Shown: positions 524 to 57,474 of the stretch, piece after piece | Layout of the letters: each line of letters starts with the position of its first letter | Numbering within the stretch: the first letter of the stretch is position 1 | The notes under the pieces: generated by a model | Told to the model about the DNA's origin: nothing | The model's database searches: none | Seen by the model: only the letters and a program-made list of their open reading frames with translations | Origin: Roseivivax jejudonensis | GTDB taxonomy: Bacteria > Pseudomonadota > Alphaproteobacteria > Rhodobacterales > Rhodobacteraceae | Direction of reading: 5' to 3' | Assembly (NCBI RefSeq): GCF_900172265.1 | Contig: NZ_FWFK01000003.1 | Location: 372,001-436,000, forward strand | DNA length: 64,000 nucleotides | Made by a program: the position numbers and the translations under genes

Positions 524-528
524 GCGGG

Positions 529-552: not shown

Positions 553-553
553 T

Positions 554-3086: not shown

Positions 3087-3116
3087 GCAACCATCCGTCG
3101 TGGATGCATCGATCAG

Positions 3117-3137
3117 GGCGCCTTCGGGCGCCTTTTT
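3117..3137 (+). terminator. Rho-independent terminator after the M15 peptidase gene
   Basis: A 6-bp stem (ggcgcc at 3117-3122 and 3127-3132) with a TTCG tetraloop is followed by five T residues. It lies about 30 bases after the peptidase stop codon. Confidence 0.85.
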
Positions 3138-3233
3138 CGTTCGGGCCATCATGGCAAAGCAACACTGCGAACGACCGCATCGTTCCCGAGAGCACAACAC
3201 ATTCAATGCGTTGGAGGGTGTTGTGGAAGTAGG

Positions 3234-3310
3234 TGGCGCGGTTGACGGGGCTCGAACCCGCGACCCCCGGCGTGACAGGCCGGTACTCTAACCAACTGAG
3301 CTACAACCGC
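3234..3310 (-). tRNA. tRNA-Asp (GTC), copy 1
   Basis: On the minus strand the 77-nt sequence folds as a complete tRNA. It begins GCGGTTGTAGCTCAGTTGG, has the anticodon loop CTGTCAC (anticodon GTC, Asp), the T-loop GGTTCGAGCCC, discriminator G and an encoded CCA at 3234-3236. It is identical to copy 2 and separated from it by 35 bases. Confidence 0.97.
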
Positions 3311-3345
3311 GCATGGCGCCGGATGGCAGCGGATCGGACAGCATG

Positions 3346-3422
3346 TGGCGCGGTTGACGGGGCTCGAACCCGCGACCCCCGGCGTGACAGGCCGGTACTC
3401 TAACCAACTGAGCTACAACCGC
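3346..3422 (-). tRNA. tRNA-Asp (GTC), copy 2
   Basis: This is a second 77-nt copy with the same sequence, anticodon GTC and encoded CCA at 3346-3348. On the minus strand it lies upstream of copy 1, so the two are probably one transcript. The 173 bases between it and the pirin stop show no recognised feature. Confidence 0.97.
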
Positions 3423-3595
3423 ACATGCTGTCCGCCCGTGCTCGGGCGTGGGGCGGTTCTTAGGCGGGCCACTTCTGCACGTCAAGCGGATTTGGGCAGC
3501 TTTCGGAACAGATTCCGCGACCGTGGAACGCGCGGCCACAATCGCCGCCGCGCGCCGTGCGATAGGCCCGGCGAAGCGACAATCGCACCCGCCGT

Positions 3596-4534
3596 TCAGC
3601 GCTCCGGCAGCGGAATGAACTCCGCATCGTCGCCCGCCGGCAGTCGGAAGCGGCCATGCGCCCAATCCTCGCGCCGCCATGCCTCCTTCGCCTCCTCTAT
3701 CCGCTCTTTCGACGAGGCGACGAAGTTCCACCAGATATAGCGCGGCCCTTCGAGCGTCTCGCCGCCGAGAAGCATGACCCGAGCGCCCTGCCCGCCGGCC
3801 TTCATCGACACACGGTCGCCGGGACGGAACACCATCATGCGGCCGGCCTCGTAGGTCTCGCCCGCGATGGCGACGGATCCTTCGACGACGTAGACACCCC
3901 GATCCTCGTGGTCGTCAGGCAGCGGAATCTGCGCGCCCGGGTCGAGGACCGCATCGGCGTAGAACATCTCGGACGCGGTTTCGACCGGTGCCCGCTCGCC
4001 CCAGGCGGAGCCGAGGATCAACCGGACCTGCTTGCCCTCGCCTTCCATGAACGGCAGCGAGTCGCGCCCGGCGTGCTGGAAGAGTGGCGCGCGATCCTCG
4101 TGATCCTTCGGAAGCGCCACCCAGGTTTGTATCCCGAAGAACGGCATCGGCTCGGTCTGCGTCGCATCGTCGGTGCGCTCCGAATGGGTGATGCCGTGAC
4201 CGGCGACCATCCAGTTGACCGCGCCGGGCTCGATCCAGGCATCGGTGCCGAGGCTGTCGCGGTGGTGCATGCGCCCGCGGTAGAGGTAGCTGATCGTCGC
4301 GAGACCGATATGCGGATGCGGCCGCACATCGAGGCCCTTGGTCGGCAGAAGCTCCGCCGGGCCCATCTGGTCGAAGAAGATGAACGGGCCGACCATCTGC
4401 CGTCGCGGCGCCGGCAGCGCGCGACGCACCTCGAACCCGCCGAGGTCGCGGGCACGCGGGACAATGACCGTTTCGATGGAATCGACCTCGTCACCGGTCG
4501 GGCAGTGCGGGTCGAGTGCGGGGTTCCAACTCAT
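3596..4534 (-). CDS. Pirin family protein
   Basis: A 312-residue bicupin of the pirin family, cytoplasmic metal-binding proteins of which some have quercetin 2,3-dioxygenase activity. The N-terminal cupin holds the family pattern FIFFDQMGPAELLP followed by DVRPHPHIGLATISYLYRG with the metal-binding His residues, then GITHSER. The C-terminal cupin is degenerate, as usual. The ATG at 4534 has GGAGG 7 bases upstream; an upstream in-frame start would add 16 residues and lacks such a site. The gene stands alone, divergent from an ABC exporter operon. Its substrate cannot be told from sequence. Confidence 0.9.
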   Translation of the reverse strand: MSWNPALDPHCPTGDEVDSIETVIVPRARDLGGFEVRRALPAPRRQMVGPFIFFDQMGPAELLPTKGLDVRPHPHIGLATISYLYRGRMHHRDSLGTDAWIEPGAVNWMVAGHGITHSERTDDATQTEPMPFFGIQTWVALPKDHEDRAPLFQHAGRDSLPFMEGEGKQVRLILGSAWGERAPVETASEMFYADAVLDPGAQIPLPDDHEDRGVYVVEGSVAIAGETYEAGRMMVFRPGDRVSMKAGGQGARVMLLGGETLEGPRYIWWNFVASSKERIEEAKEAWRREDWAHGRFRLPAGDDAEFIPLPER

Positions 4535-4731
4535 CTTCGATCCTCCTGTCGGGATTGAAGCAAAGATAGCGCGTTGACACACGCGCGAAAGTCCTCAGAA
4601 AGCGCCGAATGGGTGCGCGATCGCACAGAGTGCGGCGCCAAGATGCCGCGCCGGGGCGACCTTTCCGGACACCGGGGCGCGCCTAGCTGACACCGGGCCG
4701 GTTGATGGCCGGACAGCACGACGGAGATGGA

Positions 4732-5381
<650 letters not shown>

Positions 5382-5385
<4 letters not shown>

Positions 5386-7784
5386 CGCGCACGGCGATCA
5401 TCGCGCTCCTGTCGCATTGGCGGCGACACCGGCTGCAGCTCGCAATGCTGCTGATCGGTCTGGCGCTGGCCACCGCGCTCTGGTCCGGGGTCCAGGCGAT
5501 CAATTCCGAGGCGCGCAAGAGCTATGACCGCGCCGCGGCCACGCTCGGGCAGGACACGCTCGACCGGCTGTCGGCCCCGGATGGCGTCACCCTGTCCGAG
5601 TTCGTCGAGCTGCGGCGCGCGGGCTACCTCGTCAGCCCGGTGATCGAGGGCAACTCGCGGATCGACGCGGCGCGACTGCGCATCCTCGGCGTGGATCCGC
5701 TGACCGCCCCGCCTCAGGCCGGGCTTGCCGCGCTGGCCGGCGACGGCGACGTTCTGGCCGACTTCCTCGGATCCGAGGGGCTCCTGCTGGTTGCGCCGGA
5801 AACCGCGGCGGAGCTGGACGGCACGGACCTGCCCCCGAGGCGCATCGCGGCCGACCTCTCGCCCGGCATCGCGATCACCGACATCACCACCGCCCAGCGC
5901 CTTCTCGACCGCGAACGCCTGTCCTACCTCAGCGTCTGGCAGCAGCAACCGGCGGGCCTTCCGCCCCTGGAGTCCGCGACGGACCTCGCGCGGACCACGC
6001 CGGAGGACGGCACCGACCTCGCGGAACTCACCGACAGCTTCCACCTCAACCTGACCGCGTTCGGCTTCCTCGCCTTTGGCGTCGGTCTGTTCATTGTGCA
6101 ATCGGCCATCGGCCTCGCGGTGGAGCAGCGGCGCCAGACCTTCCGCACGCTGCGTGCGCTCGGCCTTCCGTTGCGACGACTGGTGGCGCTTCTGGCGACG
6201 GAACTGGCTGCTTTCGCGCTGCTCGCCGGAACGGTCGGGCTGGGGCTCGGCTACGCCATCGCCGCCGCGCTCCTGCCTGGAGTGGCAGGGACCCTGCGCG
6301 GGCTCTACGGCGCGCCTGTGTCCGGCATGCTGAGCTTCGATCCGCTTTGGGCACTCGCCGGGCTCGGTCTCACGCTCGCCGGCACCGCCGTTGCCGGCGG
6401 ACAGGCGCTTTGGACTGTCGCCCGGATGCCGCTCCTCGCGCCGGCCCAGCCGCGGGCCTGGGCGATGGCGTCGGCCCGCACGTTGCGGCTGCAGGGCGCC
6501 GCGGCTCTCGTCCTCCTGACGCTCGCAGTGATCCTCGTGGTCGCAGGCGGATCGCTCCTCGCGGCGTTCGGGAGCCTCGCGGCGCTTCTGATCGGCTCGG
6601 CACTGGCGCTGCCACCGCTCCTGATCGGCGCGCTCCGCCTGGCGCGGCCGCTGGCGCGTGGGCCGGTGGGCGAATGGCTCCTCGCGGATGCGCGCCAGCA
6701 GGTGCCGGCGCTGTCGTTGGCATTGATGGCGCTCCTCTTGGCGCTGTCGGCGAACGTGGGTGTCGGCACGATGGTGGGCTCGTTCCGCACGACGTTCACC
6801 GGCTGGCTCGACCACAGGCTCGCGGCCGAACTCTACGTCACCGCACCGGACGAGGAAACGGCCGCGCAGGTGCGCGAGATCGCGGCGACGGACGCGCGCG
6901 AGATCCTGCCGTCGGCCTCGGTCGACCTGACGGTGGCCGGCCAGCCCGCCACCCTGATCGGGATCGCCGCCGACGCCGCGACCTTCCGCGAGGGCTGGCC
7001 GCTTCTGCAGGCGGAGCCCGACGTGTGGGACCGGCTCGCAGCCGGAGACGGGGTTCTGATCAACGAACAGCTGTACCGGCGCGAAGACCTCGAACTCGGC
7101 GCACCGCTGACCCTGGCCGAGGGATGGCGCCTGCCGGTCGCGGGGATCTACGCCGATTATGGCAACCCGCAGGCGCAGCTGATGATCGGCAACGCTGTCC
7201 TGTCGGACCGCTACCCGGACCTGCCGCAGCTGCGCTTCGCGCTGCGCATCGCGCCGGACGCCGCGCCGGCGCTGGCCGAACGCCTGCGGCAGGAGACCGG
7301 CCTGCCGCAGCAGGCAGTGGTGAACCAGGCCGAGGTCAAGGCGATTTCGCTGCGGGTCTTCGATCAGACCTTCCTTGTGACCGGCGCGCTCAACGTCCTT
7401 ACCCTCGGGGTTGCCGGCGTGGCCGTGCTGACCGCGCTCCTGACGCTGTCGGGTCTGCGCCTGCCGCAGCTTGCGCCCCTCTGGGCGCTCGGGATCCGGC
7501 CGGCGCGGCTCGCACGGCTCGAGGTCGCGCGAACCCTGATCCTCGCAGTGCTGACCTGGGCGCTGGCGGTGCCGGTCGGCCTCGCGCTTGCGTGGGTCCT
7601 GCTCGCCCGGGTGAACGTCGCCGCGTTCGGCTGGCGGCTGCCCATGCTCTACTTCCCGGCCGAATGGCTGTGGCTGGCGGCCGCGGCGCTCACCGCGGCG
7701 GGGCTCGCCTGCGTCTGGCCCGCCTGGCGCCTGACGCGCCTGCCGCCGGACCGTCTGCTGAGGATCTTCGCCAATGAGAGATAG
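5382..7784 (+). CDS. FtsX/MacB-type ABC transporter permease
   Basis: An 800-residue membrane protein with an N-terminal anchor (LQLAMLLIGLALATALW), a large soluble domain, then a cluster of hydrophobic helices near residues 220-330. A second block of helices, a second soluble domain and a C-terminal set of helices follow. This duplicated FtsX layout is typical of fused exporters of the MacB/LolCE class. It starts with GTG at 5382, overlapping the ATPase stop (GTGA); the reading frame stays open upstream, but that part is out-of-frame translation of the ATPase gene. Its end overlaps the next gene by 11 bases. The substrate is not known; coupling to a secreted AttH-like protein suggests export of a lipid or hydrophobic molecule, which is inference. 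Confidence 0.88.
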
Positions 7785-8835
7785 GATCTGCTGCGCCCTC
7801 GCCGCCGCGCTGTGGCTGGCCGGGCCTGCCCATGCACAGGGCTATGCCGGCCTCGGGGCCGAGGCCGGCGCCGAGTTCGCGATACCGCGCGCGGATACGT
7901 CGTTCGACTTTCCCGCCGATCACTTCGCGCATCCGGGCTATCGCATCGAATGGTGGTATCTCACGGCCAACCTTGAAGGCTCGGACGGCACACCCTACGG
8001 CATCCAGTGGACGCTGTTCCGATCGGCCCTCGCGCCGAGTCGGACGGACGGCTGGGAGACCGACCAGGTCTGGCTCGGTCATGCCGCCGTCACCACGCCT
8101 GATGCGCACCTCTTCGACGAGCGGTTTGCGCGCGGCGGCATCGGTCAGGCCGGCGTGGCCGAACCGTTCGACGCCTTCATCGATGATTGGTCGATGCGTT
8201 CGACCGGGGGCGACGATCCGCTCGACCGGATCGCGCTGACCGCGCGCGGCGACTCGTTCTCCTACGATCTCGCGCTCACCGCGGAGGGGCCGCTCATTCG
8301 CCACGGCGATGCGGGGTACTCGGTCAAGTCGCTTGAGGGCCAGGCAAGCTACTATTACTCGCAGCCCTTCTACGAGGTCGAGGGCACGCTGTCCCTGCCC
8401 CGTGGCGACATACAGGTCACCGGCAGCGCGTGGCTCGATCGCGAATGGTCGTCGCAGCCCTTGTCCGAGAACCAGAGCGGCTGGGACTGGTTTTCGCTCA
8501 CCTTCGACAGCGGCGCGAAGATGATGGCGTTCGGCCTGCGCACGGATGCCGAGGGCACGCATTTCACCTCCGCGACATGGATCGAACCGGACGGCGAGGC
8601 AACCGCCTACGGCGACGGTGCGGTCACGCTCACCACGCTCGAGACGGGAGAGGTGGCAGACCGCACGCTGCCGCTGCGGTGGAGGGTGGAACTGCCGGCG
8701 CGCGATCTCGACATCACGACCGCGCCGATCAACCGCGATGCCTGGATGGGCACGAGCTTTCCCTACTGGGAAGGCCCTGTCACGGTCAGCGGGAGCCATG
8801 CCGGACGCGGCTACCTGGAGATGACAGGCTACTGA
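7774..8835 (+). CDS. Secreted CrtC/AttH-like lipocalin-fold protein
   Basis: A 353-residue protein with a signal peptide (MRDRICCALAAALWLAGPAHA). The mature part matches the family of carotenoid 1,2-hydratase CrtC and Agrobacterium AttH, two lipocalin-like domains in tandem. Signature stretches are DHFAHPGYRIEWWYLTANLE near the N-terminus, the central GSAWLDREWSSQPL and GWDWFSLTFDSG. CrtC itself hydrates carotenoids, but AttH-type members next to ABC exporters have no assigned reaction, and no carotenoid genes are nearby. The start overlaps the permease end by 11 bases, so ATPase, permease and this protein form one operon. Acting as a periplasmic partner of the exporter is inferred from that order. 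Confidence 0.8.
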   Translation: MRDRICCALAAALWLAGPAHAQGYAGLGAEAGAEFAIPRADTSFDFPADHFAHPGYRIEWWYLTANLEGSDGTPYGIQWTLFRSALAPSRTDGWETDQVWLGHAAVTTPDAHLFDERFARGGIGQAGVAEPFDAFIDDWSMRSTGGDDPLDRIALTARGDSFSYDLALTAEGPLIRHGDAGYSVKSLEGQASYYYSQPFYEVEGTLSLPRGDIQVTGSAWLDREWSSQPLSENQSGWDWFSLTFDSGAKMMAFGLRTDAEGTHFTSATWIEPDGEATAYGDGAVTLTTLETGEVADRTLPLRWRVELPARDLDITTAPINRDAWMGTSFPYWEGPVTVSGSHAGRGYLEMTGY

Positions 8836-8927
8836 CTGATCGCGCGGAGGGGCTCACGATCCCTGGTGACGCCACCGCAATTTGCTGCCAACCTGCGCGC
8901 CGATGCCGGCGGCCGGAGCACACCATC

Positions 8928-9617
8928 ATGCAGCGATCGCAGATCAACGACATCCTCGCCGGTGCCGAGGCGATGATCCGCGCCCACGACGTGGCGCTGC
9001 CCCCCTTCGCGAACTGGAGCCCCGGGACATTTCGCGACCACGCCGGGACGGCTCGCCACCTTATTGACGCACGCTGCGGCTGGGACGTGACGGATTACGG
9101 CGCCGGCCGCTTCGACGAGATGGGGCTCGTGCTGTTCACGTTGCGCAACGGGCGTCTGGCCGACCTGCAGGCCGGCCGCGGCATGTGCTACGCCGAGAAG
9201 CTCCTGATCGTCCGCGAGGGTCAGCTCTCGCCGATGCACACGCATGCGCTCAAGGCCGAGGACATCATCAATCGTGGCGGCGGCACGCTGGTGGTGGAGC
9301 TGTTCGGATCGGGCGATGCGGGCGACTTCGCGCCCGACCGCGGCGTGCGGCTGCTGACCGACGGCCTATGGCGCGATGTAGCGCCCGGGGGGCGCGTGAA
9401 CCTCGCACCGGGCGAGAGCGTGACGCTCATGCCGGGCGACTGGCACGCGTTCTGGGCCGAGGGTGGCGACGTGCTCGTCGGCGAGGTGTCGACCGTCAAC
9501 GACGACGAAACCGACAACATCTTCCGCGAGCCCCTGCCCCGATTCGCCGAGATCGTCGAGGATGTCACCCCGACCCGCCTTCTGGTGAGCGACTACGCAG
9601 CGACGTTCGGCGGGTAG
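8928..9617 (+). CDS. D-lyxose ketol-isomerase family protein
   Basis: A 229-residue cupin matching the D-lyxose isomerase family (E. coli Z5688 group, about 227 aa), which interconverts D-lyxose and D-xylulose or D-mannose and D-fructose with a divalent metal. The family stretch SPMHTHALKAEDIINRGGG supplies the metal ligands (His 104, His 106 and a nearby Glu), and GDWHAFWAEGGDVLVGEVS carries the last His. The ATG at 8928 gives the usual family length. It follows the exporter operon after a 92-base gap in which no regulatory site was recognised, and it converges with the Crp/Fnr gene with only 3 bases between the stops. No sugar transporter or kinase is adjacent, so the physiological substrate is unclear. 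Confidence 0.85.
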   Translation: MQRSQINDILAGAEAMIRAHDVALPPFANWSPGTFRDHAGTARHLIDARCGWDVTDYGAGRFDEMGLVLFTLRNGRLADLQAGRGMCYAEKLLIVREGQLSPMHTHALKAEDIINRGGGTLVVELFGSGDAGDFAPDRGVRLLTDGLWRDVAPGGRVNLAPGESVTLMPGDWHAFWAEGGDVLVGEVSTVNDDETDNIFREPLPRFAEIVEDVTPTRLLVSDYAATFGG

Positions 9618-45570: not shown

Positions 45571-46767
45571 ATGGCCCTCAGCGTGCAAAAATTGAAATCC
45601 GCAGGTCCGGGTCGGCACGGCGACGGGCGCGGTCTTTTTCTCTATGTCAAAGCAACAGGCGCGCGGTCTTGGGTGCTGCGCTATCAGGTGCAGGGGCGGC
45701 GTCGCGATCTTGGGCTTGGAGCCTATCCTGACATTACGCTGGCTATGGCGCGCAACCGCGCCGCAGAGGCGCGGCGCCTGATCGCAGAGGGGCAAGACCC
45801 AATCGCCAAGAAGCAACAGGCCCAACCCAAAACTTTCAAAGAGACGGCGCTGGAACTGATCGAAAGCAAGCGCCCCGGCTGGAAGAACGCCAAGCACGCA
45901 GCCCAATGGACGGCGACGCTAGACGCCTACGTTTTCCCCAAGATCGGCCAGATGCAGGTGGCGCGGGTCGAAACAGCAGACGTGATCGCCGCGCTCACCC
46001 CGATCTGGACTACGAAACCCGAAACCGCCAGCCGTGTGCGGCAGAGGATTGAGGCGGCGCTGGATTACGCGACCGCGCTCGGCATCCGTGCGGGCGAGAA
46101 TCCAGCACGCTGGCGCGGGCACCTGGATCACCTTTTGCCGAAGCCATCCAAGTTACGCGCGGTAAAACACCACCCTGCCCTGCCGCACGTACAGATTGCC
46201 GATTTCATGGCCGATTTGGCGGCCCGCAATGGCGTGGCCGCACGCGCGCTTGGTTTCACGATCCTGACCGCGGCCCGGTCGGGCGAAACGCGCGGCATGA
46301 CATGGTCCGAGGTTGATCTAGACGCGCGCATCTGGACGATCCCAGCCGAACGAATGAAGGCGGGAAAGGAACATCGCGTGCCGCTCAGTGACGCGGCCAT
46401 CGCCCAGCTTGGCCCCCGCCGCGATCACGCGGCGCTGGTATTCGAAAGCGAAAGCAAACCGGGCAAACAGATTTCCGACATGAGCATGACCGCCGTTCTA
46501 CGGCGTATGGGCCGCGACGCGATTACCGTGCACGGGTTCCGCTCGACTTTCCGCGACTGGGCAGGTGAAACAACAGGCTTCCCGCGCGAGGTGATTGAAG
46601 CCGCGCTAGCACATGGCATCAAGGACAAGGCCGAAGCGGCCTATGCCCGATCCGACCTTTTCAAAAAACGACGCAAGCTGATGGGCGTGTGTGCTGAGGC
46701 TGCAATGCGATCAGGCCAAGGCGCAAACATTGTGACGTTAGCTGGCGGACCAATGCTTAGACGTTAA
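45571..46767 (+). CDS. Tyrosine site-specific integrase, DUF4102 (P4/CP4-57) class
   Basis: A 398-residue integrase. The N-terminal DUF4102 DNA-binding domain (residues ~1-85: GDGRGLFLYVKATGARSWVL, GLGAYPDITLAMARNRA) is followed by a SAM-like core-binding domain and a catalytic domain. That domain has all expected residues: Arg 236 in AARSGETRG, a Lys in RMKAGKEHR, His 321 and Arg 324 in HGFRSTFRDW, His 348 and the nucleophile Tyr 358. This class integrates into tRNA 3' ends, in agreement with the repeat found at tRNA-Ser. It sits at the end of the island far from the intact tRNA. The start at 45571 directly follows the 45548-45566 repeat, so that repeat could also affect its expression. Confidence 0.93.
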   Translation: MALSVQKLKSAGPGRHGDGRGLFLYVKATGARSWVLRYQVQGRRRDLGLGAYPDITLAMARNRAAEARRLIAEGQDPIAKKQQAQPKTFKETALELIESKRPGWKNAKHAAQWTATLDAYVFPKIGQMQVARVETADVIAALTPIWTTKPETASRVRQRIEAALDYATALGIRAGENPARWRGHLDHLLPKPSKLRAVKHHPALPHVQIADFMADLAARNGVAARALGFTILTAARSGETRGMTWSEVDLDARIWTIPAERMKAGKEHRVPLSDAAIAQLGPRRDHAALVFESESKPGKQISDMSMTAVLRRMGRDAITVHGFRSTFRDWAGETTGFPREVIEAALAHGIKDKAEAAYARSDLFKKRRKLMGVCAEAAMRSGQGANIVTLAGGPMLRR

Positions 46768-46834: not shown

Positions 46835-47458
46835 CTAATTGTCTTTTGGCTCCCAGTGAAGCGACACTACCTTGTGCCGAACCTTGAAATCCAAACCAGA
46901 AGATTCGTGTTTGTGGTTCGAAAGGAAAAAGAGGAGGTCCGTGCAAGGGCCGTCGCTTGTATTGACCTCAGGGTTTCGGACGACCAACTCTTCGCGCCAC
47001 TTGTTCAGCATCGCTTTGGCGTCTTTCACTTTGCAATAGATTAATACTTCCCCGTGGTCTTGGCCGGGAACGCCTGTTGAGTAACGCGTAGAAAGCTGCT
47101 GGAAGCCCTTGTCGAGCCACGAATAGTCATTGTGTTTTTTGGCCTCTGCGAGCCATAGGAAATCGTCTTTCCCTTCAACCAGAATATCACAGTGCCCGCC
47201 TACCGCCGCATCGTGAGTGGCTTTTATGCCGGAACTCGTGAGCATATCGCAAACTTGAACAGATAGCGAATTTTCGCTATCGGCTTGCTTCAAATCCCGG
47301 TGCCTGATTAGCCTATTGCAGGCGAAATCTACTGAGCGTTGAACCGCGTTGACCCTAGCACCATGATCTTGAGCGAATAAGAAATCTATTCCAGTTTCCA
47401 TGTGCGTCCCAGCGGCATGAAGGCGCAGGTAGGCAAGGGAGTCGGTGGACGGGGTCAT
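46835..47458 (-). CDS. Unrecognised PD-(D/E)xK nuclease-like protein coupled to the ISP enzyme
   Basis: A 207-residue protein that I cannot place in a named family. The centre has a plausible PD-(D/E)xK core: Asp 91 in GGHCDILVE, then Glu 105-x-Lys 107 in FLWLAEAKKH, with an upstream Glu near 62. A Gln-rich helix after it (KGFQQLSTRY) fits the fold, seen in many restriction and repair nucleases. Its ATG (47458) overlaps the stop of the ISP restriction-modification gene as ATGA, so the two are translated together. The gene is noticeably A+T-rich. It converges with the integrase gene. It may be an accessory nuclease, a sensor or an anti-defence countermeasure part of the same system; none is shown by the sequence. 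Confidence 0.65.
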   Translation of the reverse strand: MTPSTDSLAYLRLHAAGTHMETGIDFLFAQDHGARVNAVQRSVDFACNRLIRHRDLKQADSENSLSVQVCDMLTSSGIKATHDAAVGGHCDILVEGKDDFLWLAEAKKHNDYSWLDKGFQQLSTRYSTGVPGQDHGEVLIYCKVKDAKAMLNKWREELVVRNPEVNTSDGPCTDLLFFLSNHKHESSGLDFKVRHKVVSLHWEPKDN

Positions 47459-50400
47459 TGCACGCCCCCTCCAAAATGCTCCGTGTTAAGATGGAAGTAA
47501 GGAATGACGCGCTCCGATGCTCGGACAATCTCTTTGCGTGTGACTGGATGCAGAACAGTATCGATTTCCAATACCCTCTGGAAATCCTCGGGAGACAACG
47601 GGTGCCTTTTTGCAGTGTTATCGATGAACTCAGCAGTAGCCCGAAAGATCGCATATTCCGATTGAACCAGAATCGAAAGTGCAGCAACAACATCCGGAGT
47701 TAATTCAGTCTTACCTAGCATTTCCAGTATGTCGCTCACGCGCCAGCTCTTTGATGCCCTCGCATCGTTGGCCCTCAGTGCTTCGACAATCTTCAAAGCC
47801 GTCGTAGCAGCAGGCCGGTCCTTCCAATGCGCAGTGATGGCACGTTTCAAGTCTTCAACGGATAGGACTTTTGGCGAGTGATCAGCGTCAATATCTAGAG
47901 GGGGAAGCCCCCCTACGATTTTCATCGTCTCCAGGCTCACGGTGATCACGCGACGGAAGAGGTCGAGGGGATAGCGCGGGTCGCCGATGGTTTCGTTGGC
48001 GTAGTCGTTGGCGTCGTTGACGATGCCGCTCGCCTTGTCCTGTTTCACCACCTGCCGCTCCATCACCCATTCGAGGGCCGGCTTGCCGTTTACGACGTAG
48101 TCGTAGGCCTCGATGGGAATGTTCTGCATTGTAATGTTGTCGTTGTAGATGACGGTGGTCTTGTCCTTTTCCTTGCCCTTGCCGCCGAACTTCATCTTCT
48201 TGACGCGGTAGAACTTCACCGGGTCGTCCTGCGCCTCGTTGATCAGGGCGTGGTCGCCCTCCTTGAAGGTGACAAGATAGGGCTCCACGCTTTCGAAGTT
48301 CACATGCAGGTCGCCCAGGCGCCGGCCCGCGTCGCGGAAGGCGGCGAAATCGGCGAAGGTGCGGACCGCCGGGATGCGGGGCAGCGCCTTGGCAAGGTTG
48401 TTCTTGAACCGCTCGCGGTAGTCGGGCGCGTGCAGTAGGCCGTAGATGTAGTAGAACAGGTCTTCCTTGGTGATCGTCTCGCCCGGATAGGCGGCTTGGA
48501 AGTGGGCAAGCCCAGCGTCGGTGATGGCCTCGCGGCGCGTGAGTGCGGTTTCACCTTCCGGTGTGGCGAAGAGGCCCCCTTCGTGCTTGGTTTCTTCGTA
48601 GAGGTAGAGGGGAAAGCATTGGCCTTTTTCAATAGTATCTCTGCTCGGAAATGTCTCAAGCATTAGAGGAAGTGATCCGGCGCGACTTCCCACACCGGAA
48701 ACCATGAAAAAGCGATTCAACGTTTCGTTCGTCGGGAGGATTTTGTCGAATTGGCCCACGATCTCGTTGAAGTCACGAGAAAAGTGAAGCCAGCTAGGCG
48801 TAAATGGTCGGTAACTGGCCTTCACATTGCGACCACTTTTACTGGAAATCTGCTTTCCGCGCGCAACGTGTTTTTTGAACTCTCGGCTCCAACTGATCCT
48901 TTTGTCATCGTAACTGATGTACTTGTCGATTTCTTCTTTTTCAAAATGCCTTAGGCGCTCCACCTCATCATTGAAGAAGCGAATTGAGCGCTGAACATTA
49001 TTTTCGAGCTTTTCGAGCGATGTATTAAAAGCCCAAGCATCGCGGCCGGTCATGACGCCAACAGAATAATTCTCGAACAGCCCTACATCTTCGCCACGCT
49101 TCGCTCCAAGTATCGGAAACTTGTCAAAGCCCGGGTCGGCTTGGTCAAGCCAGTCATTTTGTGCATCCGGCACAATCCGCGTCCAACCCTGTTTGGCAGT
49201 TATGCCGCCAATCGAGCCGAAATGCCGGACGATATCCAGCTTTTCCTTCTGGCTTAAATAATCGCCGATGTCATGAAAGTGGATGCGGCCACGTTCAGTA
49301 GCGTCAGGATTCTTGACGAAAACCGAGATTGCAATGGGTGCGCGGCTGCCTGATCCGAATATTTTCCCGCCTTCCTTGCGGGACAGCTCGCCAGATGTTC
49401 GCTGATTGCCGCGAAGATGGAAAACGTAAAGGTCGCTGAACTCCTCCGCGAGGCATTCGCGCAGACCATCGGTGGCGTTGCCGTCCACCCAACCCGCGTT
49501 TGTGACATAGGCCATGACGCCTGCGTCCCCGATCCTGTCCGAGGCCCAGCGGATCGCACGGATGTAGCTGTCATAGAGCGCGTTCTTGAGCGTCGCCGAG
49601 GAATGAGCGGCGTAGCTGTCGCGGATCGCGGCGTCGAGCGTCGGGTAGGCGATGTTCGCCGCGTTGTCGTTGGCGCTGCCTTGCCCCGCCGAATAGGGCG
49701 GATTCCCGATGATCACGCGGATATCCAACGCCTTCTGCCGGGTCCGGCGCTCGGAGTTGTCGGGCAGAAGGTTCGCGACCATGTCGCGCTCCTGCTCGTA
49801 CATCTGGAACGTGTCGGTCAGCAGGATGCCGCCAAACGGCTCATAGGACGCGTCTTCACTCAATTCGCCCTGCATCAGCTCGTGATACACCGTCTCGATA
49901 TTGATGGCGGCGATGTAGTAGGCCAGCAGGACGATCTCGTTGGCGTGGATCTCCTCTCGGTATTTTCGCGCCAACTCGTCGGCGGCGATCAGGCCGGATT
50001 GCAGTAGGCGCGTGATGAAGGTGCCGGTGCCGGTGAAGGGGTCGAGGATGTGAACGCCCTCGGACCCGAGGGTCTGGCCGAACTGCGCCTTGAGTACGTC
50101 ATTGACCGAGTGGATGATGAAATCCACCACCTCGACCGGCGTGTAGACGATGCCGAGGCGTTGGGTCAGGACGGGGAAGGCCCCTTTGAAGAAGCTGTCG
50201 TAGAGCTTGTAGATCAGTTCCTGCCGTCCGTTGGCGGTGACCACGTCGGCCGCGCGCCGCTCAACGCTGGCGTAGAACTTTGACAGACTCTCGGACTCCT
50301 TGGCGAGGTTGTGCTCGTGGAGTTGCCCGAGCACCGTCTCCATCGCGCGGGAGACGGGGTTGGCATTGGTGAACTGGCTGCCCTTGAACAGCGCGTCGAA

Positions 50401-52767
50401 GACGGGGCGCGTGATGAGGTGCTGGGCCAGCATCTCGATCGCCTCGGCCTCGGTGATTTCGGGGTTGAGGTCGTCCTGCAGTTCGTCGAGAAACGCAAGG
50501 AAGGCGGTGCGTTCCGGCCCCTCCTGACCCACGATCGTGGTGATCCTGGTGATATGGGTCTGGGCGATCTTGGCTATATCCTTGGCCCAAGCATCCCAGT
50601 ATTCACGCGTGCCGCATTTCTGGACTATCTTGGCCATTATGGCGCGAGTGAACTCATCAAACACCATTTCGGACTGAGATTCCGGATTGGCGAGGTCGCG
50701 GCCTTCGGGACCTTCCTGACCGATACCGGCGCCCTTTTTCTCGGGCTTAGTCTTGGTCGTGGCGATGTCGTCCACTACAGCAGTCAGGTCTTTCAATTCG
50801 GACTCGGACGAGATGCGGACGAATGCCACTTTGTCGCTGATATCCTCGCCCAGATCTGCCTGATTGATTCTCGCGTCTAGGCGTTCGTCATGTGCGCGCA
50901 AAGCGTTGAGGATTTGCCAGACAACCTTGTAGCGTTCGTTATCGTTAAGCGCGTCCTCGGGTTTGGTGTCTGGCGGGATGGCGACGGGAAGAATGACATA
51001 GCCCAGCTTCTTTTCGCCAGCAGGGTCCTTGCGCATGACGCGCCCGACAGATTGCACCACGTCGATCTGGCTTTTGCGCGGGTGCATGAACATGATCGCG
51101 TCGAGAGCGGGTACGTCCACGCCTTCGGACAGGACCTTGGCATTGGTGAGAATGCGGCAGGTGCCGTCCCCCGCGTCCGCCTTGAGCCAGCTAAGTATTT
51201 CCTCGCGGGCGCTGGCGTTGTAGCTGCCGTCAACGTGCCGGACCTCGGGACTTAGGTGGCGCGCGTCGTCGATCAGTTCGCTTCCGGTGTATTCATCTAC
51301 CACCTTCGCGAATTCGTCCTCGATGATGCGAGATTTCGCGATGCTCTGACAGAAGGCTAGCGCGCGCTTCATCGGCTTCGGGTCGAAATCCAGGTCGGCG
51401 CGGATATCGCTCTTCGTGAGGGCCTTGTAGCAGCCGATGATCTTGGTCGCATCATCAAGGGTCAGCTCGGCTCCTTCCCTGAGGCGGCTCTGGATCGTCT
51501 TAGAAATCAGCCCTTCGTCTACGGCCAGCACGACAACCTTGTAGTCTGTGAGTTGGTCATTCTCGACGGCCCAGCCGAAACCCCGGTGGAAGAGGTCCGT
51601 GCCGAACTTTGCCTCGTCATCCATCGAGGCTAGCTCCGCATCGTGGTCATCAGCCTTGCGACGTGCCTCATCTCCGAAAATGCGCGGTGTTGCCGTCATG
51701 TAGAGCCGCTTGCGAGCGGCCACGTAATCGTTGCTGTGGATGCGTACGAAGTTGCTGTCGTCCTCGTCCTTGAGAGTGACACCAGTGGTGCGATGCGCCT
51801 CGTCGCATATCACAAGGTCAAACTCGGGGAGGTCGTGGTTCCGTTGTGCCTTCGTTAGAACGTCTATGGAGTGATAGGTTGAAAAGACGACGGTCATCTG
51901 TTCTGGGTCGGCCTCACCCACCTGCTGGGCCAATTTCGCGGGGTCGGTTGTTGCGGGAAATGCGAGGTCGTGGACATTGAGGTCCAGACTGTCGGCGTCA
52001 GCACGTCGGCCTACTCGGACATCGGAACAGGCGGAAAACGCGTTGAAGTCCTCTTGCGCGTCGTTCTTCCATTCGCGAACGGTCTGGGACATGAGGGCAA
52101 GCGATGGGACCATAAAGAGGACAAGCTTGCCAGCGCCGCCGATGTTCTCAGCGATGCGTAGGCCGGTGAAGGTCTTACCGGTGCCGCACGCCATAATCAG
52201 CTTGCCGCGATCCGCCTCCTCAAGCCCTTCGGTCACTGCCTTGAGGGCTTCGCGCTGGTGATCCTTCAGATCTTTCTTTGGGGCGAGGCTGATGGTCCCG
52301 GTGCGAAGAAATCGCGACCAGTCGATCCGGCTCGCGGCTAGTTCATTGATCCCGATCCGGTTCCAGTCCTTGGACAGGTTGTTCAAGGTCTCTTTTGTGT
52401 TGCGACCAAAATCACGCTGGGTCGTGTCAGCTATGATTAGGCGCGTGAACATGTCGCTAGAGGCGGCGGAGATGAAACTGTCGATATCCGGCTTCTGGAT
52501 CACATGAGCCGGCGCGTAGAACTTGCACTGTATCGCAGCATAGCCAGACCCATCCGCAAGGGTTGCCACGAGGTCGATCCCTGTGTCAGCGCTGCTCCAT
52601 CCCTGTTCCTTGGCCCATTCCGCGAAAGGCACGACGGCAGAATAGTACTGTTTCTGGGTGTCGTCGTACTCTAGGAAGACGCGGACCAGTCGCTCGAAGT
52701 AGTCGCCCTTCTCGCGTTCATTGGTTGCGGCGGCCCTATACCGCTCCAACAACGAAACAAGCTGCAT
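47455..52767 (-). CDS. Type ISP single-chain restriction-modification enzyme
   Basis: A 1770-residue protein with the domain order of type ISP enzymes such as LlaBIII. An Mrr-like nuclease has Asp 65 in TGIDLVAT and Gln 80-Cys-Lys 82. A superfamily 2 translocase has Walker A ACGTGKT (~193-199), DEAH (322-325), TATPR (~358-362) and a motif VI region VQSVGRVMR. A helical coupler follows, then an N6-adenine methyltransferase with ILDPFTGTGTF (~907-917) and NPPY (~1022-1025), and a target-recognition part with much lower GC (about bases 48600-49400). LlaBIII is about 1580 residues, so roughly the last 170 residues, also A+T-rich, are an extension. It methylates one strand and uses ATP-driven translocation for cleavage. 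Confidence 0.93.
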   Translation of the reverse strand: MQLVSLLERYRAAATNEREKGDYFERLVRVFLEYDDTQKQYYSAVVPFAEWAKEQGWSSADTGIDLVATLADGSGYAAIQCKFYAPAHVIQKPDIDSFISAASSDMFTRLIIADTTQRDFGRNTKETLNNLSKDWNRIGINELAASRIDWSRFLRTGTISLAPKKDLKDHQREALKAVTEGLEEADRGKLIMACGTGKTFTGLRIAENIGGAGKLVLFMVPSLALMSQTVREWKNDAQEDFNAFSACSDVRVGRRADADSLDLNVHDLAFPATTDPAKLAQQVGEADPEQMTVVFSTYHSIDVLTKAQRNHDLPEFDLVICDEAHRTTGVTLKDEDDSNFVRIHSNDYVAARKRLYMTATPRIFGDEARRKADDHDAELASMDDEAKFGTDLFHRGFGWAVENDQLTDYKVVVLAVDEGLISKTIQSRLREGAELTLDDATKIIGCYKALTKSDIRADLDFDPKPMKRALAFCQSIAKSRIIEDEFAKVVDEYTGSELIDDARHLSPEVRHVDGSYNASAREEILSWLKADAGDGTCRILTNAKVLSEGVDVPALDAIMFMHPRKSQIDVVQSVGRVMRKDPAGEKKLGYVILPVAIPPDTKPEDALNDNERYKVVWQILNALRAHDERLDARINQADLGEDISDKVAFVRISSESELKDLTAVVDDIATTKTKPEKKGAGIGQEGPEGRDLANPESQSEMVFDEFTRAIMAKIVQKCGTREYWDAWAKDIAKIAQTHITRITTIVGQEGPERTAFLAFLDELQDDLNPEITEAEAIEMLAQHLITRPVFDALFKGSQFTNANPVSRAMETVLGQLHEHNLAKESESLSKFYASVERRAADVVTANGRQELIYKLYDSFFKGAFPVLTQRLGIVYTPVEVVDFIIHSVNDVLKAQFGQTLGSEGVHILDPFTGTGTFITRLLQSGLIAADELARKYREEIHANEIVLLAYYIAAINIETVYHELMQGELSEDASYEPFGGILLTDTFQMYEQERDMVANLLPDNSERRTRQKALDIRVIIGNPPYSAGQGSANDNAANIAYPTLDAAIRDSYAAHSSATLKNALYDSYIRAIRWASDRIGDAGVMAYVTNAGWVDGNATDGLRECLAEEFSDLYVFHLRGNQRTSGELSRKEGGKIFGSGSRAPIAISVFVKNPDATERGRIHFHDIGDYLSQKEKLDIVRHFGSIGGITAKQGWTRIVPDAQNDWLDQADPGFDKFPILGAKRGEDVGLFENYSVGVMTGRDAWAFNTSLEKLENNVQRSIRFFNDEVERLRHFEKEEIDKYISYDDKRISWSREFKKHVARGKQISSKSGRNVKASYRPFTPSWLHFSRDFNEIVGQFDKILPTNETLNRFFMVSGVGSRAGSLPLMLETFPSRDTIEKGQCFPLYLYEETKHEGGLFATPEGETALTRREAITDAGLAHFQAAYPGETITKEDLFYYIYGLLHAPDYRERFKNNLAKALPRIPAVRTFADFAAFRDAGRRLGDLHVNFESVEPYLVTFKEGDHALINEAQDDPVKFYRVKKMKFGGKGKEKDKTTVIYNDNITMQNIPIEAYDYVVNGKPALEWVMERQVVKQDKASGIVNDANDYANETIGDPRYPLDLFRRVITVSLETMKIVGGLPPLDIDADHSPKVLSVEDLKRAITAHWKDRPAATTALKIVEALRANDARASKSWRVSDILEMLGKTELTPDVVAALSILVQSEYAIFRATAEFIDNTAKRHPLSPEDFQRVLEIDTVLHPVTRKEIVRASERVIPYFHLNTEHFGGGVQ

Positions 52768-53053: not shown

Positions 53054-54274
53054 ATGGCATCGCTCAGTGGATTTTTACGCAAGGCACCGCCCGACCGTTT
53101 GCAGGCTTTCTTTCAAGCGAGGGGCGTCACGGCACCTGATGATTTCGACTGGAGCAGCAACGGGCGCGGCAAGAAATTCGTTCAATCCATCGAAAGCCTG
53201 GTGTCCGATTTACCAGACCGCTTGCAGGACAGACTGCGCGCCGAACTCGATCACCTGAGGACCCTCGCCGATAGCGACGGGATGAAAGGCGCCGAGGAAG
53301 TCTGCGCCGGTCAGGGCATCGACCTGGACGGATTGCAGGGCAACGAGGACGTGTTGCTGATGCTGGCGGTTGATTACCCTCAGGTCATCGACCGGGTGTC
53401 CGCGCAGACCTCGCTGATCCGGCACACTGGCGGCAGGAACTGGGCGGGATTCCAGTTCAAGGACGATGGTCGGTCATGGGCGCTCGATGACGAAGCGGCA
53501 CGCGACGCCTTCTTGCAAGACGCCGTAGAAATTCTGAAACTGCCCGAGCATCGCAAGCGCGAGGCCGACTGGTATCAATCCATCCGCATACATCCCGTCA
53601 CCAGCGAAGAAACCACGATCACGCAGGCCACGATCTATGTCGAGGAACGCGCGGCCAGCGAACTGGCCTTCGTGTCGGGCGCCACAGTGGAACGGCAGGT
53701 GGTGCCAAAGGTGCTGGAGGTCGGGCTGGCCTGCGATCCGCAGAGTCGCATGGTCGAGATTTGCGCCAAAGGTGGAAAGCGTGTGGGCGACCAATACGCC
53801 GAAGCGTTCACCAAGCGTTTCGCGCCGCACGCACCGCCGCCGGTCGAGGTGCCGCGCCGCGAGGTGTTGCTGTATACGCTGCGCGGTCTTCCCCGGTTCG
53901 AGACCGACCCCGCCGATGGGATCGAGGGTGTCGAGGTCTCATCGCTAGAGTTTTTCTCGACGGGAGGCGGGACCGCGCGGTTCGAACGGCGCGGCGACGA
54001 TGAGACCATCTATGAATTTCTTGGGCGACGCTTTGGGCCGCATTCCCCGTTGCAGGCGTATGGCTGGACGATTTACGCAGCCACGCTGCGGATCAAGCGT
54101 GCCGCACGTGATGGAACGCGCGGCAAGACGCTAACCGTCACCCTGCGCGCACCCAACACGACCACCTTGCCAAACACGACCGAGGCCGACCGACACTATG
54201 CTCTGGACCTTCTGGAACGCTGGGGCGTGATTGCCCCGCCGCCAGAGGACGTCGACGTGACCAAGGATTTCTGA
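53054..54274 (+). CDS. Unknown 406-residue island protein
   Basis: I do not recognise a family. The N-terminal quarter (residues ~1-95) is helical and acidic and begins MASLSGFLRKAPPDRLQAFF. The middle and C-terminal parts are rich in predicted beta strands, with patterns such as ITQATIYVEERAASELAF and VEVSSLEFFSTGGGTARF. No membrane segment, signal peptide, P-loop or nuclease motif is evident. The ATG at 53054 is preceded by a weak AAGG. The stop is followed one base later by the GTG start of the next gene, so the two are likely translated as a pair. The GC content is like the backbone, unlike the ISP target-recognition part. It is first in a five-gene co-directional group ending in a recombinase. 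Confidence 0.75.
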   Translation: MASLSGFLRKAPPDRLQAFFQARGVTAPDDFDWSSNGRGKKFVQSIESLVSDLPDRLQDRLRAELDHLRTLADSDGMKGAEEVCAGQGIDLDGLQGNEDVLLMLAVDYPQVIDRVSAQTSLIRHTGGRNWAGFQFKDDGRSWALDDEAARDAFLQDAVEILKLPEHRKREADWYQSIRIHPVTSEETTITQATIYVEERAASELAFVSGATVERQVVPKVLEVGLACDPQSRMVEICAKGGKRVGDQYAEAFTKRFAPHAPPPVEVPRREVLLYTLRGLPRFETDPADGIEGVEVSSLEFFSTGGGTARFERRGDDETIYEFLGRRFGPHSPLQAYGWTIYAATLRIKRAARDGTRGKTLTVTLRAPNTTTLPNTTEADRHYALDLLERWGVIAPPPEDVDVTKDF

Positions 54275-54275
54275 C

Positions 54276-55103
54276 GTGTCGCCCGTCGTGCTATTGTGTG
54301 GGATCATCGCTCAGTCCGGCAAGGTGTCGGCAACGACCTATCGAGACCTGGACGCCTATGGCCAACTCGTGACCACCGGCCTAGTGCGCCGGCAAGGGCT
54401 GGTCCAGTCCGTGCTGTGCGATGCCTGCGACATGGGGCACGACGCCGCAATCGTGTTCGATGACGGACGCTATGGCCACGTCTGCCCTGAGATCGGATTT
54501 GTCCCCGTCGAGCGGTCTGAGTTGATCGCGGTCGCGCCGGATTTCGAGGCGCTGGCCACGCAGATCGCCGCAGCCCTTGGGTGCAAGGCGCACGGGGCGC
54601 GCCGCTTGGCCGACCAGACCTGGCATATCGGGACGGTCAGGACTGCCACAGCCGACATAGCGGTGTTTTTCCATGCCCGTCTGCAAACGACGCAAGACCT
54701 GCAATCGCTGGAAACCGTGTTGCGCGACCAAGTGCGCACGCGGTTCGGGCTGGTGCTGACGGCGCGCGGCACCCTGCCGGTGCCAGGACTAAGCAGCGCA
54801 CCGCTCGATCAGGTGTTGGGGTTCGATCCGGCGCATGGCGGGCTGGTGGCCGAGGCTGACCTGTCCGTGCTTGTCGGCGCGCCGGTCACGCTCAAAGGCG
54901 GGCGCCCGGCCACTCATGCCGACCGCATCAAGGCAATCATCGCGGAGCGCTCCTCAAACGGGCGCACCGCAACCGGAAAAAATGCCGAAATCCGTGCGAT
55001 TCAATCGGAATATGCGGCGCAGTTTCCTGGTGGCCCGACGCCATCGCGCTCAGCAATCATGTATCATCTGCCCAAGTTGCCCGGTGGTCGAAAACCGGTC
55101 TAA
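54276..55103 (+). CDS. Unknown 275-residue protein with a possible zinc-binding motif
   Basis: I do not recognise a family. Residues 48-70 contain Cys 48-x2-Cys 51, His 55, His 68 and Cys 70, a pattern that could hold zinc. The C-terminal ~60 residues are basic and helical (HADRIKAIIAERSSNG, then EIRAIQSEYAAQFPGG) and resemble an HTH-like DNA-binding tail. It starts at GTG 54276, one base after the stop of the 406-residue gene, which indicates an operon. Together with that partner it forms an unassigned two-gene unit; nucleic-acid binding is the most that can be suggested. Confidence 0.72.
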   Translation: MSPVVLLCGIIAQSGKVSATTYRDLDAYGQLVTTGLVRRQGLVQSVLCDACDMGHDAAIVFDDGRYGHVCPEIGFVPVERSELIAVAPDFEALATQIAAALGCKAHGARRLADQTWHIGTVRTATADIAVFFHARLQTTQDLQSLETVLRDQVRTRFGLVLTARGTLPVPGLSSAPLDQVLGFDPAHGGLVAEADLSVLVGAPVTLKGGRPATHADRIKAIIAERSSNGRTATGKNAEIRAIQSEYAAQFPGGPTPSRSAIMYHLPKLPGGRKPV

Positions 55104-55845: not shown

Positions 55846-55951
55846 AAGCACATTAAGGAGGCGGACAGGCGTCCCCGTGTTCTTCCACTTCACGACACCA
55901 CCGCCCGGCAGGCTTTCGGGCACCCAAAATCAAGCGTTATCGGAGGACAGG

Positions 55952-56989
55952 ATGCGCAAGCGCCCCAATGAACAGAACGAACGGATCAAGCGCCGGTTCA
56001 TGGAATACCGCAAACATGCGCGGCAGTTGTCCGAGAAGTCCTTGGACAAGGAGCTGGCGGCGCTGGAACGCTTCGACGTCTGGAACGGGCGCAAGGATTT
56101 CGCGCGGTTCCATATCGAGTGGGCGATGGGGTTTCGCGCCCACCTGGAGCAGGCGAGGGCCGCGAACGGCAAGCCGCTTGGCAAATCGACCACCCGCGCG
56201 ATCATCGCAACGCTGAGGGAGTTCACGCTGTGGCTGTCGCAGCAGGATGGTTATCGTAGCCGGATCAAACCCGGCGACGCCGATTACTTCCGACTGTCTC
56301 GCCGCGACGAGGCAGAGGCCCGCGCGGCACCTGAACGACCGGCGCCGAGTGTGCGGCAGGCCAGGCGCACGCTGGCGATGATGCCCGCCGTTTCCCCGCG
56401 CGACTTGCGCGACCGGGCCGTCGTCGCGCTGTTGTGCCTGACCGGTATCCGGGTGTCGGCGCTGGTGTCGCTGCGCATCAAGCATGTCGATCTGGCCGAG
56501 AAATCAGTGACGCAGAATCCGCGCGAGGTCGCGACCAAGTTCGGCAAGCGGATAGAAACATTCTTTGCCAAGGGATTCGACGAGGCCGAGGCCACGCTGG
56601 CTGCATGGCTGGCACATCTCGACGCGGTTGAACTATACGGTCCCGACGATCCGCTGTTCCCCGCGACCGCTATTGCCCCAAGCGCCAATGACGGGTTCCG
56701 GGCAAGCGGATTCGTCCGCCGTCCGTGGCGCAGCACCGAATCGGTGCGCAAGATCGTGCGCGAGGCTTTCGAAGCGGCGGGCATCCCGAACTACGGTCCC
56801 CATGCGTTCCGCCACATGCTCGCTCGCGACGCCGCCAAGAACGCCAAGTCTGTTGCCGAACTGGTCGCCACTTCACAGAACCTGGGCCATACCGACGTGC
56901 TGACCACCCTGCGCAGCTACGGCCAGATTGACCGCGACCGTCAAAGGACGCTGATCACCGGCCTGACCGACGAAGACGTCACTGAATAA
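55952..56989 (+). CDS. Tyrosine recombinase at the tRNA-proximal island end
   Basis: A 345-residue phage-integrase-family protein, different from the integrase at the other end because it has no DUF4102 domain. A SAM-like N-terminal core-binding domain (residues ~10-110) precedes the catalytic domain with Arg 167 ([13 protein letters not shown]), a Lys near 196-199, His 284 and Arg 287 (HAFRH), His 313 (NLGHTD) and nucleophile Tyr 323 (RSYGQ). ATG 55952 has GGAGG 6 bases upstream. It ends about 100 bases from tRNA-Ser and is last in the five-gene group with two HTH proteins. It may mobilise that group independently of the DUF4102 integrase. Confidence 0.88.
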
Positions 56990-57094: not shown

Positions 57095-57109
57095 GTGGCG
57101 GAGAGGAAG
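57095..57109. repeat. Right attachment-site repeat within tRNA-Ser
   Basis: gtggcggagaggaag, identical to 45402-45416. All but the first base lie inside the 3' end of the tRNA-Ser gene, so integration here keeps the tRNA intact. Confidence 0.85.
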
Positions 57110-57185
57110 GGATTCGAACCCTCGAGACGGTTTCCCGCCTACACACTTTCCAGGCGTGCGCCTTCGACCACTCGGCCACCTCTCC
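57096..57185 (-). tRNA. tRNA-Ser (GGA), integration target of the island
   Basis: The 90-nt minus-strand sequence starts GGAGAGGTGGCCGAGTGG, has the anticodon loop CTGGAAA (anticodon GGA), the long variable arm typical of Ser tRNAs, the T-loop GGTTCGAATCC, discriminator G and an encoded CCA (57096-57098). Its 3' end faces the island. Confidence 0.97.
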
Positions 57186-57378: not shown

Positions 57379-57474
57379 CGCCGGCATCGTACGATCACCG
57401 CACGCCGGCATCGTGCGACTGTCGCACGCCGGCGCCGTGTGATCACCGCACGCCGGAACGGTGCGATAACCGCT
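57379..57474. repeat. Tandem array of four 24-bp units
   Basis: Four imperfect copies with an exact 24-base period begin at 57379, 57403, 57427 and 57451. Each starts CGCCGG; copies 1-3 end in a conserved C-GCA and the core varies between GTACGATCACC, GTGCGACTGTC and GTGTGATCACC. Several copies hold small dyads such as TGCGACTGTCGCA. The array lies in the 300-base gap between tRNA-Ser and mscS, close to the mscS 3' end. The rest of that gap (57186-57378) shows no recognised feature. Confidence 0.8.

Follow-up and report, generated by a model that had tools for sequence, protein, structure and literature searches.

A type ISP restriction enzyme of Roseivivax jejudonensis ends in an additional domain that, together with a downstream protein of predicted PD-(D/E)xK fold, recurs on several unrelated carriers

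Results

The ISP Enzyme Gene and the Gene That Overlaps It

We analyzed a 64,000-nucleotide (nt) stretch of the genome of Roseivivax jejudonensis (contig NZ_FWFK01000003.1, positions 372,001 to 436,000; hereafter the window), in which an operon on the minus strand encodes a type ISP restriction-modification enzyme of 1770 amino acids (aa) (47455-52767), followed by a 207-aa protein that we call C (46835-47458). The TGA stop codon of the ISP gene and the ATG start codon of the C gene overlap as ATGA (47458-47455), and the junction reads ...gtgcaATGAccccg... The stop/start overlap from which an earlier reading of the window (the sequence-only reading) proposed translational coupling of the two proteins is confirmed in the DNA. 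The features of the operon are as follows, where X-B denotes a carrier protein X with the domain B described below.

47455..52767, minus strand: type ISP restriction-modification enzyme with B at its C-terminus (X-B), 1770 aa (open reading frame; Pfam; PADLOC REase_MTase_IIG, 2109 bits)
52306..52665, minus strand: nuclease domain Mrr_cat_2 of the ISP enzyme, residues 35-154 (Pfam, E 5.4e-31)
51682..52275, minus strand: ResIII part of the ISP motor, residues 165-362 (Pfam, E 4.6e-24)
50230..50601, minus strand: ISP coupler domain, residues 723-846 (Pfam PF22240, E 4.2e-48)
49684..50205, minus strand: N6 adenine methyltransferase domain, residues 855-1028 (Pfam, E 6.7e-5; 22.8 bits, cut-off 20.4)
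47959..49080, minus strand: ISP target-recognition domain Type_ISP_C, residues 1230-1603 (Pfam, E 1.9e-100)
47473..47862, minus strand: domain B, ISP residues ~1636-1765, adaptor-like (B profile, 121 bits; blastp; AlphaFold2; fold search)
47455..47458, minus strand: ATGA stop/start overlap of the ISP-B gene and the C gene (sequence)
46835..47458, minus strand: C, protein of predicted PD-(D/E)xK fold, 207 aa (open reading frame; alignment; AlphaFold2 model; fold search)
47033..47275, minus strand: predicted PD-(D/E)xK core of C, residues 62-142 (E62, D91, E105-x-K107, Q121) (alignment invariance; model)

The ISP chain contains, in this order, the Pfam domains Mrr_cat_2, ResIII, Helicase_C, ISP_coupler, N6_Mtase and Type_ISP_C; the nuclease, ResIII, coupler and specificity domains score far above their cut-offs, and N6_Mtase exceeds its own as listed. 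With an Mrr-type nuclease, a superfamily 2 motor, a coupler, an N6 methyltransferase and a specificity domain on one chain, the enzyme is of type ISP, and it shares this arrangement of nuclease, motor, coupler, methyltransferase and target-recognition domains with LlaBIII and LlaGI. In the latter two, the last part, the guide of the target recognition domain, is reported to reach residue 1578 (PMC4872093), whereas the window enzyme continues for about 165 residues past Type_ISP_C into B and is followed by C. Its chain therefore does not end with the specificity domain, as that of known members does. We take this as a variant difference and not as a difference in membership, because the chain end describes how known members look and does not define the class.

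Protein C Is Predicted to Have a PD-(D/E)xK Fold

No family is named for the window C in Pfam, PADLOC or NCBIfam, and its sole Pfam match is chance-like (E 0.17). We aligned it with the C sequences of 73 of the 91 loci described below (loci carry L numbers); the 18 near-duplicate or incomplete rows left out were L042, L061, L063, L065, L068, L070, L072, L074, L076, L078, L082, L085, L091, L092, L093, L102, L104 and L105. Residues E62, G88, D91, E105, K107, G118, Q121, R125, Y126 and P204 are invariant in all 74 rows. Asp 91 and Glu 105-x-Lys 107, which the sequence-only reading had picked out as a nuclease-like core, thus stand at the places it gave and are strictly conserved.

The AlphaFold2 model of C (mean predicted local distance difference test score, pLDDT, 96.3; predicted template modelling score 0.92) shows the element order alpha-beta-beta-beta-alpha-beta, that of the PD-(D/E)xK fold, with D91 and E105-x-K107 in strands. 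When the model was compared with known structures by VIA-align, the top matches were the nucleases OkrAI (Z 9.8, root-mean-square deviation (rmsd) 3.5 over 142 residues), BamHI (Z 9.4) and BglII (Z 8.7). Lower matches were McrBC (7.8), Can2 (6.4), NucC (6.0), the N-terminal region of LlaBIII (5.4) and HamA (5.2), which may mean only a common arrangement. Foldseek returned nothing for the model at E ≤0.001, though nucleases top its list, and a profile of the 74 rows had no match among Protein Data Bank (PDB) sequences at E 5. Based on the element order of the model, the nuclease matches of VIA-align and the invariant catalytic residues, C is predicted to be a PD-(D/E)xK-fold protein with a complete active site and is a putative nuclease.

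A PADLOC candidate system, PDC-S54, weakly matches 15 of the 74 C sequences (best E 5.1e-6); the one match shown spans only positions 262-380 of 410, and the window C has no match to it. We did not find the name PDC-S54 in the openly licensed literature.

Domain B Is a Probable Add-On to the ISP Enzyme

B comprises the approximately 130 extra residues that end the window ISP chain. A B profile matches residues 1636-1765 at 121 bits (the window row itself being within the profile). In blastp searches within an 11-sequence set, the ISP tail matched the stand-alone B of L005 over nearly its full length (E 2e-5, with 24% identity in 129 columns). It also matched the tail of an enzyme of the MmeI family from Rhizobium phaseoli (E 2e-10). 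B of the ISP enzyme is homologous to the stand-alone B of the A-B-C operons described below and to the tails of MmeI, HsdR, FeeM, EF-Tu and other fusion proteins. The AlphaFold2 model of B has a pLDDT of 87. Many of the matches listed in a fold search with this model are winged helices, weakly so (best Z 6.0, rmsd 2.5, 63 residues); Foldseek gave nothing better than E 0.63, and the B profile matched only two IHF constructs among PDB sequences (E 1.4 and 1.6).

The ISP coupler is present in 17 of the 372 genomes of the class of the window. As controls we fetched 16 other regions, three of which (L124, L130, L133) were excluded as unreadable to the C-terminus of the enzyme. The other 13 ISP-coupler proteins all lack B (one, L131, is split across two frames; two short ones, L137 and L138, have 1088 and 1038 residues), and C was not found in the stretches fetched around them. 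The relative in genome G233, whose coupler and specificity domain are 93% and 66% identical to those of the window enzyme, ends where the latter continues into B, and the stretch fetched around its gene contains no C. This close relative without the tail makes B a probable add-on to the ISP enzyme.

Most C Genes Close a Three-Gene A-B-C Operon

By tblastn, C was detected in five phage records and in 16 plasmid records, 13 of which were examined. Eight plasmid records are annotated with three genes of which C is the last (A, ~350-380 aa; B, ~125-150 aa; C, ~210-270 aa); at L010 the annotation is limited to B and C, with A visible as an open frame. Scans with alignments yielded 59 genome loci and 32 viral-contig loci, 91 together, 7 of which are near-duplicates of others. 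Scans of the genomes and viral contigs with single sequences found no relative, and such a scan of 61 related genomes found none besides the window's own. Searches of plasmids with the C of L145 and of L148 (16 and 13 records) added no record to those already found. When one A-B-C operon of Enterobacter was searched for in Escherichia coli genomes at the DNA level, at which distant homologues could escape, nothing matched.

Using profiles of A, B and C, A was identified upstream of B and C in 75 of the 91 loci, being broken or cut by a contig edge in four or five. The other 16 comprise ISP-B (5), HsdR-B (1), a helicase protein with B (1), FeeM-B (1), NACHT-HEAT-C (5), B with a short extension (L037) and two cut contigs (L021, L055). 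A is not a restriction enzyme, and the six A proteins scanned against Pfam gave nothing above the cut-off. All three families have PHROG counterparts, 12777 for A of L022 (E 3e-49), 11490 for the window B (E 4e-6) and 9664 for the window C (E 4e-42), each listed with unknown function. The sequence-only reading had seen C as a partner of ISP enzymes; as such, this is not supported, given the prevalence of A and the 13 ISP-coupler proteins that have neither B nor, within the stretches fetched, C.

B with a short N-terminal extension occurs at L037, L147 and L148. The last two belong to genome G492, which has three places with C, the third of which (L149) looks decayed.

The nearest possible start codon of C lies at most 19 nt from the stop codon of B in 108 of 109 B-C pairs, with a 4-nt overlap in 49; the nearest start was chosen, which favors closeness, and near-identical or duplicate records are included (L003 and L035 are the same plasmid). 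In the sole deviating case, an Acinetobacter plasmid record (L011), the gap is approximately 1.3 kb, perhaps owing to an insertion. Pairwise distances of B and C correlate (r 0.72, n = 90; the largest of 2000 permutations reached 0.13), as do those of A and C (0.68, n = 76) and of A and B (0.75, n = 77). The three are thus inherited together, and B and C are one unit.

C is rare and scattered. It was found in 4 of 248 genomes of the family of the window, 9 of 341 of the order and 7 of 398 of the phylum (overlapping draws, each including the window genome). With a smaller alignment, 1 of 385 genomes of a class sample had it, this one being the window's own.

The B-C Pair Occurs on Diverse Carriers

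An ISP enzyme with B followed by C is found in the window and in five further genomes (Ruegeria, Rhizobium, Bradyrhizobium, Sneathiella and a Rhizobiales bacterium; L015-L019), with a 4-nt overlap at the B-C junction of L018. In these five the C gene directly follows the ISP gene, so homologues of C do occur next to such genes, and the adjacency on which the sequence-only reading had built recurs and is no chance event. What that reading did not contain is that the link between ISP enzyme and C runs via B on the ISP C-terminus, and that the same pair sits on MmeI, HsdR, a helicase protein, FeeM, EF-Tu and S3.

In Rhizobium phaseoli (L002) an MmeI-family enzyme ends in B, and the C gene downstream overlaps its gene by GTGA (two plasmid records have the same match, one of which was examined). 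In Sphingopyxis (L036) a type I restriction system, with HsdM and HsdS upstream of HsdR-B, is followed by C. In Pararhizobium (L020) a helicase protein with B adjoins an Eco57I-type methylase and is followed by C; its ResIII match of 22.0 bits is just below the cut-off of 22.5, and its N-terminus is GIY-YIG-like by eye. The carriers are not limited to restriction proteins. Bradyrhizobium algeriense (L038) has a FeeM acyl-amino-acid synthase domain with B, followed by C. One genome of the window's family (L145) encodes a third copy of EF-Tu with B at its end, followed by C; this EF-Tu has all three domains and the GTP-binding motifs and shares 88% identity with each of the two further tuf copies in that genome. 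Another genome of the family (L146) encodes a second ribosomal protein S3, which shares 64% identity with the first and has a weaker and shorter B, followed by C. In cyanobacteria, C is the last part of single chains that have NACHT and HEAT ahead of it in five of five cases (L039, L046, L047, L048, L063) and in which no B was detected; this arrangement would fit an effector role for C.

Two further cases were considered and set aside. The contig of L021 begins inside B, and its C pairs in the first tree with the C of the A-B-C locus L022, so that we leave it out of the ISP cases. At L161 (genome G906, 5264-9507) a 1208-residue ResIII frame (27.3 bits, cut-off 22.5) resembles a type III Res subunit by eye and shares GTGA with the gene of a C homologue; B at the C-terminus of this frame was not significant, and it is not counted as a B fusion.

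At L145 (genome G561, 434-8458) the EF-Tu-B and C genes lie behind an HD-domain gene and a gene for a GHKL-type ATPase, beside a gene of the phage integrase family. This neighborhood is possibly a larger mobile defence cluster.

In a C tree, built by a quick method without bootstrap and after dropping L021, L055, L064, L095 and L097, a single clade was rejected for the restriction-linked C proteins (9 rows; p-value of the approximately unbiased test 6e-4) and for those of all fusions (12 rows; 1.3e-4). At least 10 changes of carrier label are required, counting the short extensions and NACHT. The ISP-linked C proteins group together, and the helicase case falls among them with modest support. 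An earlier tree likewise rejected one clade; in it L021 was miscounted as ISP and L055 was outside the count of changes.

Surroundings of the Operon in the Window

The region is flanked on both sides by tyrosine integrase genes (45571-46767 and 55877-56989), and a tRNA-Ser(GGA) gene (57096-57185) lies at one edge, beside the second integrase gene, which suggests that the region is an integrated island. No convincing pair of att-like repeats was present around it in the 20 of 49 repeat families that were listed. Just past the tRNA-Ser gene (57379-57466) are head-to-tail repeats with a 24-nt period. Two neighboring genes on the plus strand (53054-55103), which encode 406 and 275 aa and are transcribed divergently from the ISP gene, have no Pfam family above the cut-off. 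The 406-residue gene at 53054 was considered as a hidden A, but neither the A profile (no match) nor hhalign (probability 0.2%) identified it as such.

Discussion

Known Systems That Resemble the Pair

PrrC, a tRNA anticodon nuclease, probably belongs to another family than C. In EcoprrI-PrrC, as described, an extra nuclease-type protein is genetically linked to a restriction enzyme (PMC12409349, PMC12707154): PrrC is bound by EcoprrI and is activated when the T4 protein Stp inhibits EcoprrI (PMC12409349). The window resembles this system in that the gene of a putative effector is linked to a restriction gene, by the ATGA overlap and in the same order at five other ISP loci. It differs in that PrrC guards a type I enzyme, whereas the partner in the window has a predicted PD-(D/E)xK fold; moreover, the B-C pair is found both with several classes of restriction protein and with proteins outside restriction. 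PARIS and Ronin are described as sensing anti-restriction proteins, with an effector or toxin linked to the sensor (PMC12409349). As described there, Ronin resembles a restriction system minus its restriction component and PARIS consists of AriA-AriB (PMC12409349). We found no description of ISP-B/C or of a B-C module in the openly licensed literature, most subscription journals being outside it.

A Proposed Portable Sensor-Effector Module and Its Alternatives

The carriers have neither fold nor reaction in common; among them, four are restriction proteins and two are duplicated translation proteins. A role of C as a mere cutting aid at restriction sites is hard to reconcile with this variety, which is more easily explained if the carrier is watched; a guard or integrated-bait mechanism is therefore ranked first. 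We propose, at about even confidence, that B-C is a portable sensor-effector module, in which X is bait or guarded protein, B transmits, and C cuts upon a phage attack on X. The proposal builds on the gene order and overlap, the homology of B across carriers, the predicted fold and catalytic set of C and the several carrier changes on its tree; contact between B and C, repression, activation, nuclease activity and its substrate, a phage trigger and a role in defence are inferred parts of it. Precedents are EcoprrI-PrrC, PARIS and Ronin (PMC12409349) and the backup nuclease effectors described for BREX (PMC12839542). X, in the window the ISP enzyme, would be the protein attacked. B, an adaptor at the C-terminus of X, would bind C and pass on the state of X; C, a nuclease produced next to X-B through translational coupling, would be held inactive by X-B. 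The trigger would be a phage factor that attacks X, an anti-restriction protein in the case of restriction enzymes and some other factor in that of the spare EF-Tu or S3. The change in X would be relayed via B, C would be released or activated and would cut nucleic acid, and as a second line of defence the phage would be stopped or the infected cell killed.

Of the sequence-only reading, the nuclease-like fold of C (as predicted), its coupling to an ISP enzyme and the recurrence of the pair are supported; an ISP-specific partnership is not. Sensing of modified DNA, one of the functions it had suggested, fits poorly with EF-Tu and S3 as carriers, and over a second cleavage activity or restriction control, its other suggestions, we favor a guard role. 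In the second-ranked explanation, which we consider unlikely, B would tether C to a restriction enzyme, and C would add a second cut or degrade DNA under translocation, acting with restriction and not upon its failure. Several carriers are indeed restriction proteins, among which ISP and HsdR have motor domains, the gene overlap would help to hold the ratio of ISP enzyme to C, and BREX systems are described as having auxiliary as well as backup nuclease effectors (PMC12839542). This explanation is at odds with the carriers EF-Tu, S3 and FeeM, in which Pfam finds no DNA-recognition or restriction-motor domain, with the lack of any match above the Pfam cut-off in the six A proteins, and with the close ISP relative that manages without B and C.

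More improbable still, and ranked third, is an addiction module, with X-B as antitoxin and C as toxin, that stabilizes an island, plasmid or prophage and protects the carrier from loss. The order of B before C with overlapping or nearly touching genes would fit such a module, as would the presence of C in 32 viral contigs and 16 plasmid records and the position of the window operon between an integrase gene and a second one adjoining tRNA-Ser. By itself it does not account for carriers that are repeatedly restriction enzymes or copies of core proteins, and it overlaps with the guard mechanism, which adds a trigger. Very improbable, finally, is that B is a plain oligomerization or DNA-binding tail and C an unrelated hitchhiker, their shared context being an accident of mobile elements: the weak likeness of the B model to winged helices would also fit DNA binding, but the two are close neighbors in 108 of 109 pairs, and they diverge in parallel.

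Several observations weigh against the guard mechanism. The fusions to EF-Tu, S3, FeeM, HsdR and the helicase protein are each known from one locus (MmeI from two records with the same match), so that single odd fusions are possible, and B of the S3 carrier is weak, with its last part unseen. C is rare even among relatives of these two: 1 of 21 genomes has it in the genus with the EF-Tu fusion, and 1 of 6 in the genus with the S3 fusion. The quick C tree, without bootstrap, does not separate gain from loss, and the correlation of B and C distances shows co-inheritance and not contact. In the commonest form, A-B-C, A is a protein of unknown function, so that the bait idea is more tentative there, and the phage-like and plasmid homes also fit addiction.

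A wider form of the guard mechanism, which we put forward tentatively and as less probable than the mechanism itself, is that B-C is a general immune module with interchangeable integrated baits. B would be fused to any protein that is a target of phages, the baits being four kinds of restriction protein, spare copies of EF-Tu and ribosomal protein S3, and an acyl-amino-acid synthase; attack would unleash C, and A of the A-B-C operons would be a dedicated sensor. This logic is comparable to that of plant immune receptors with integrated decoys.

If the guard mechanism is true, the same nuclease module has become linked, each time separately, to restriction enzymes of several classes and to copies of core translation proteins, and guarding is a plug-in function. 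It would explain the extra nuclease in some restriction systems, and the bait adjoining C would tell directly which host proteins phages attack. Even if it is wrong, three families of unknown function gain a common context and testable roles.

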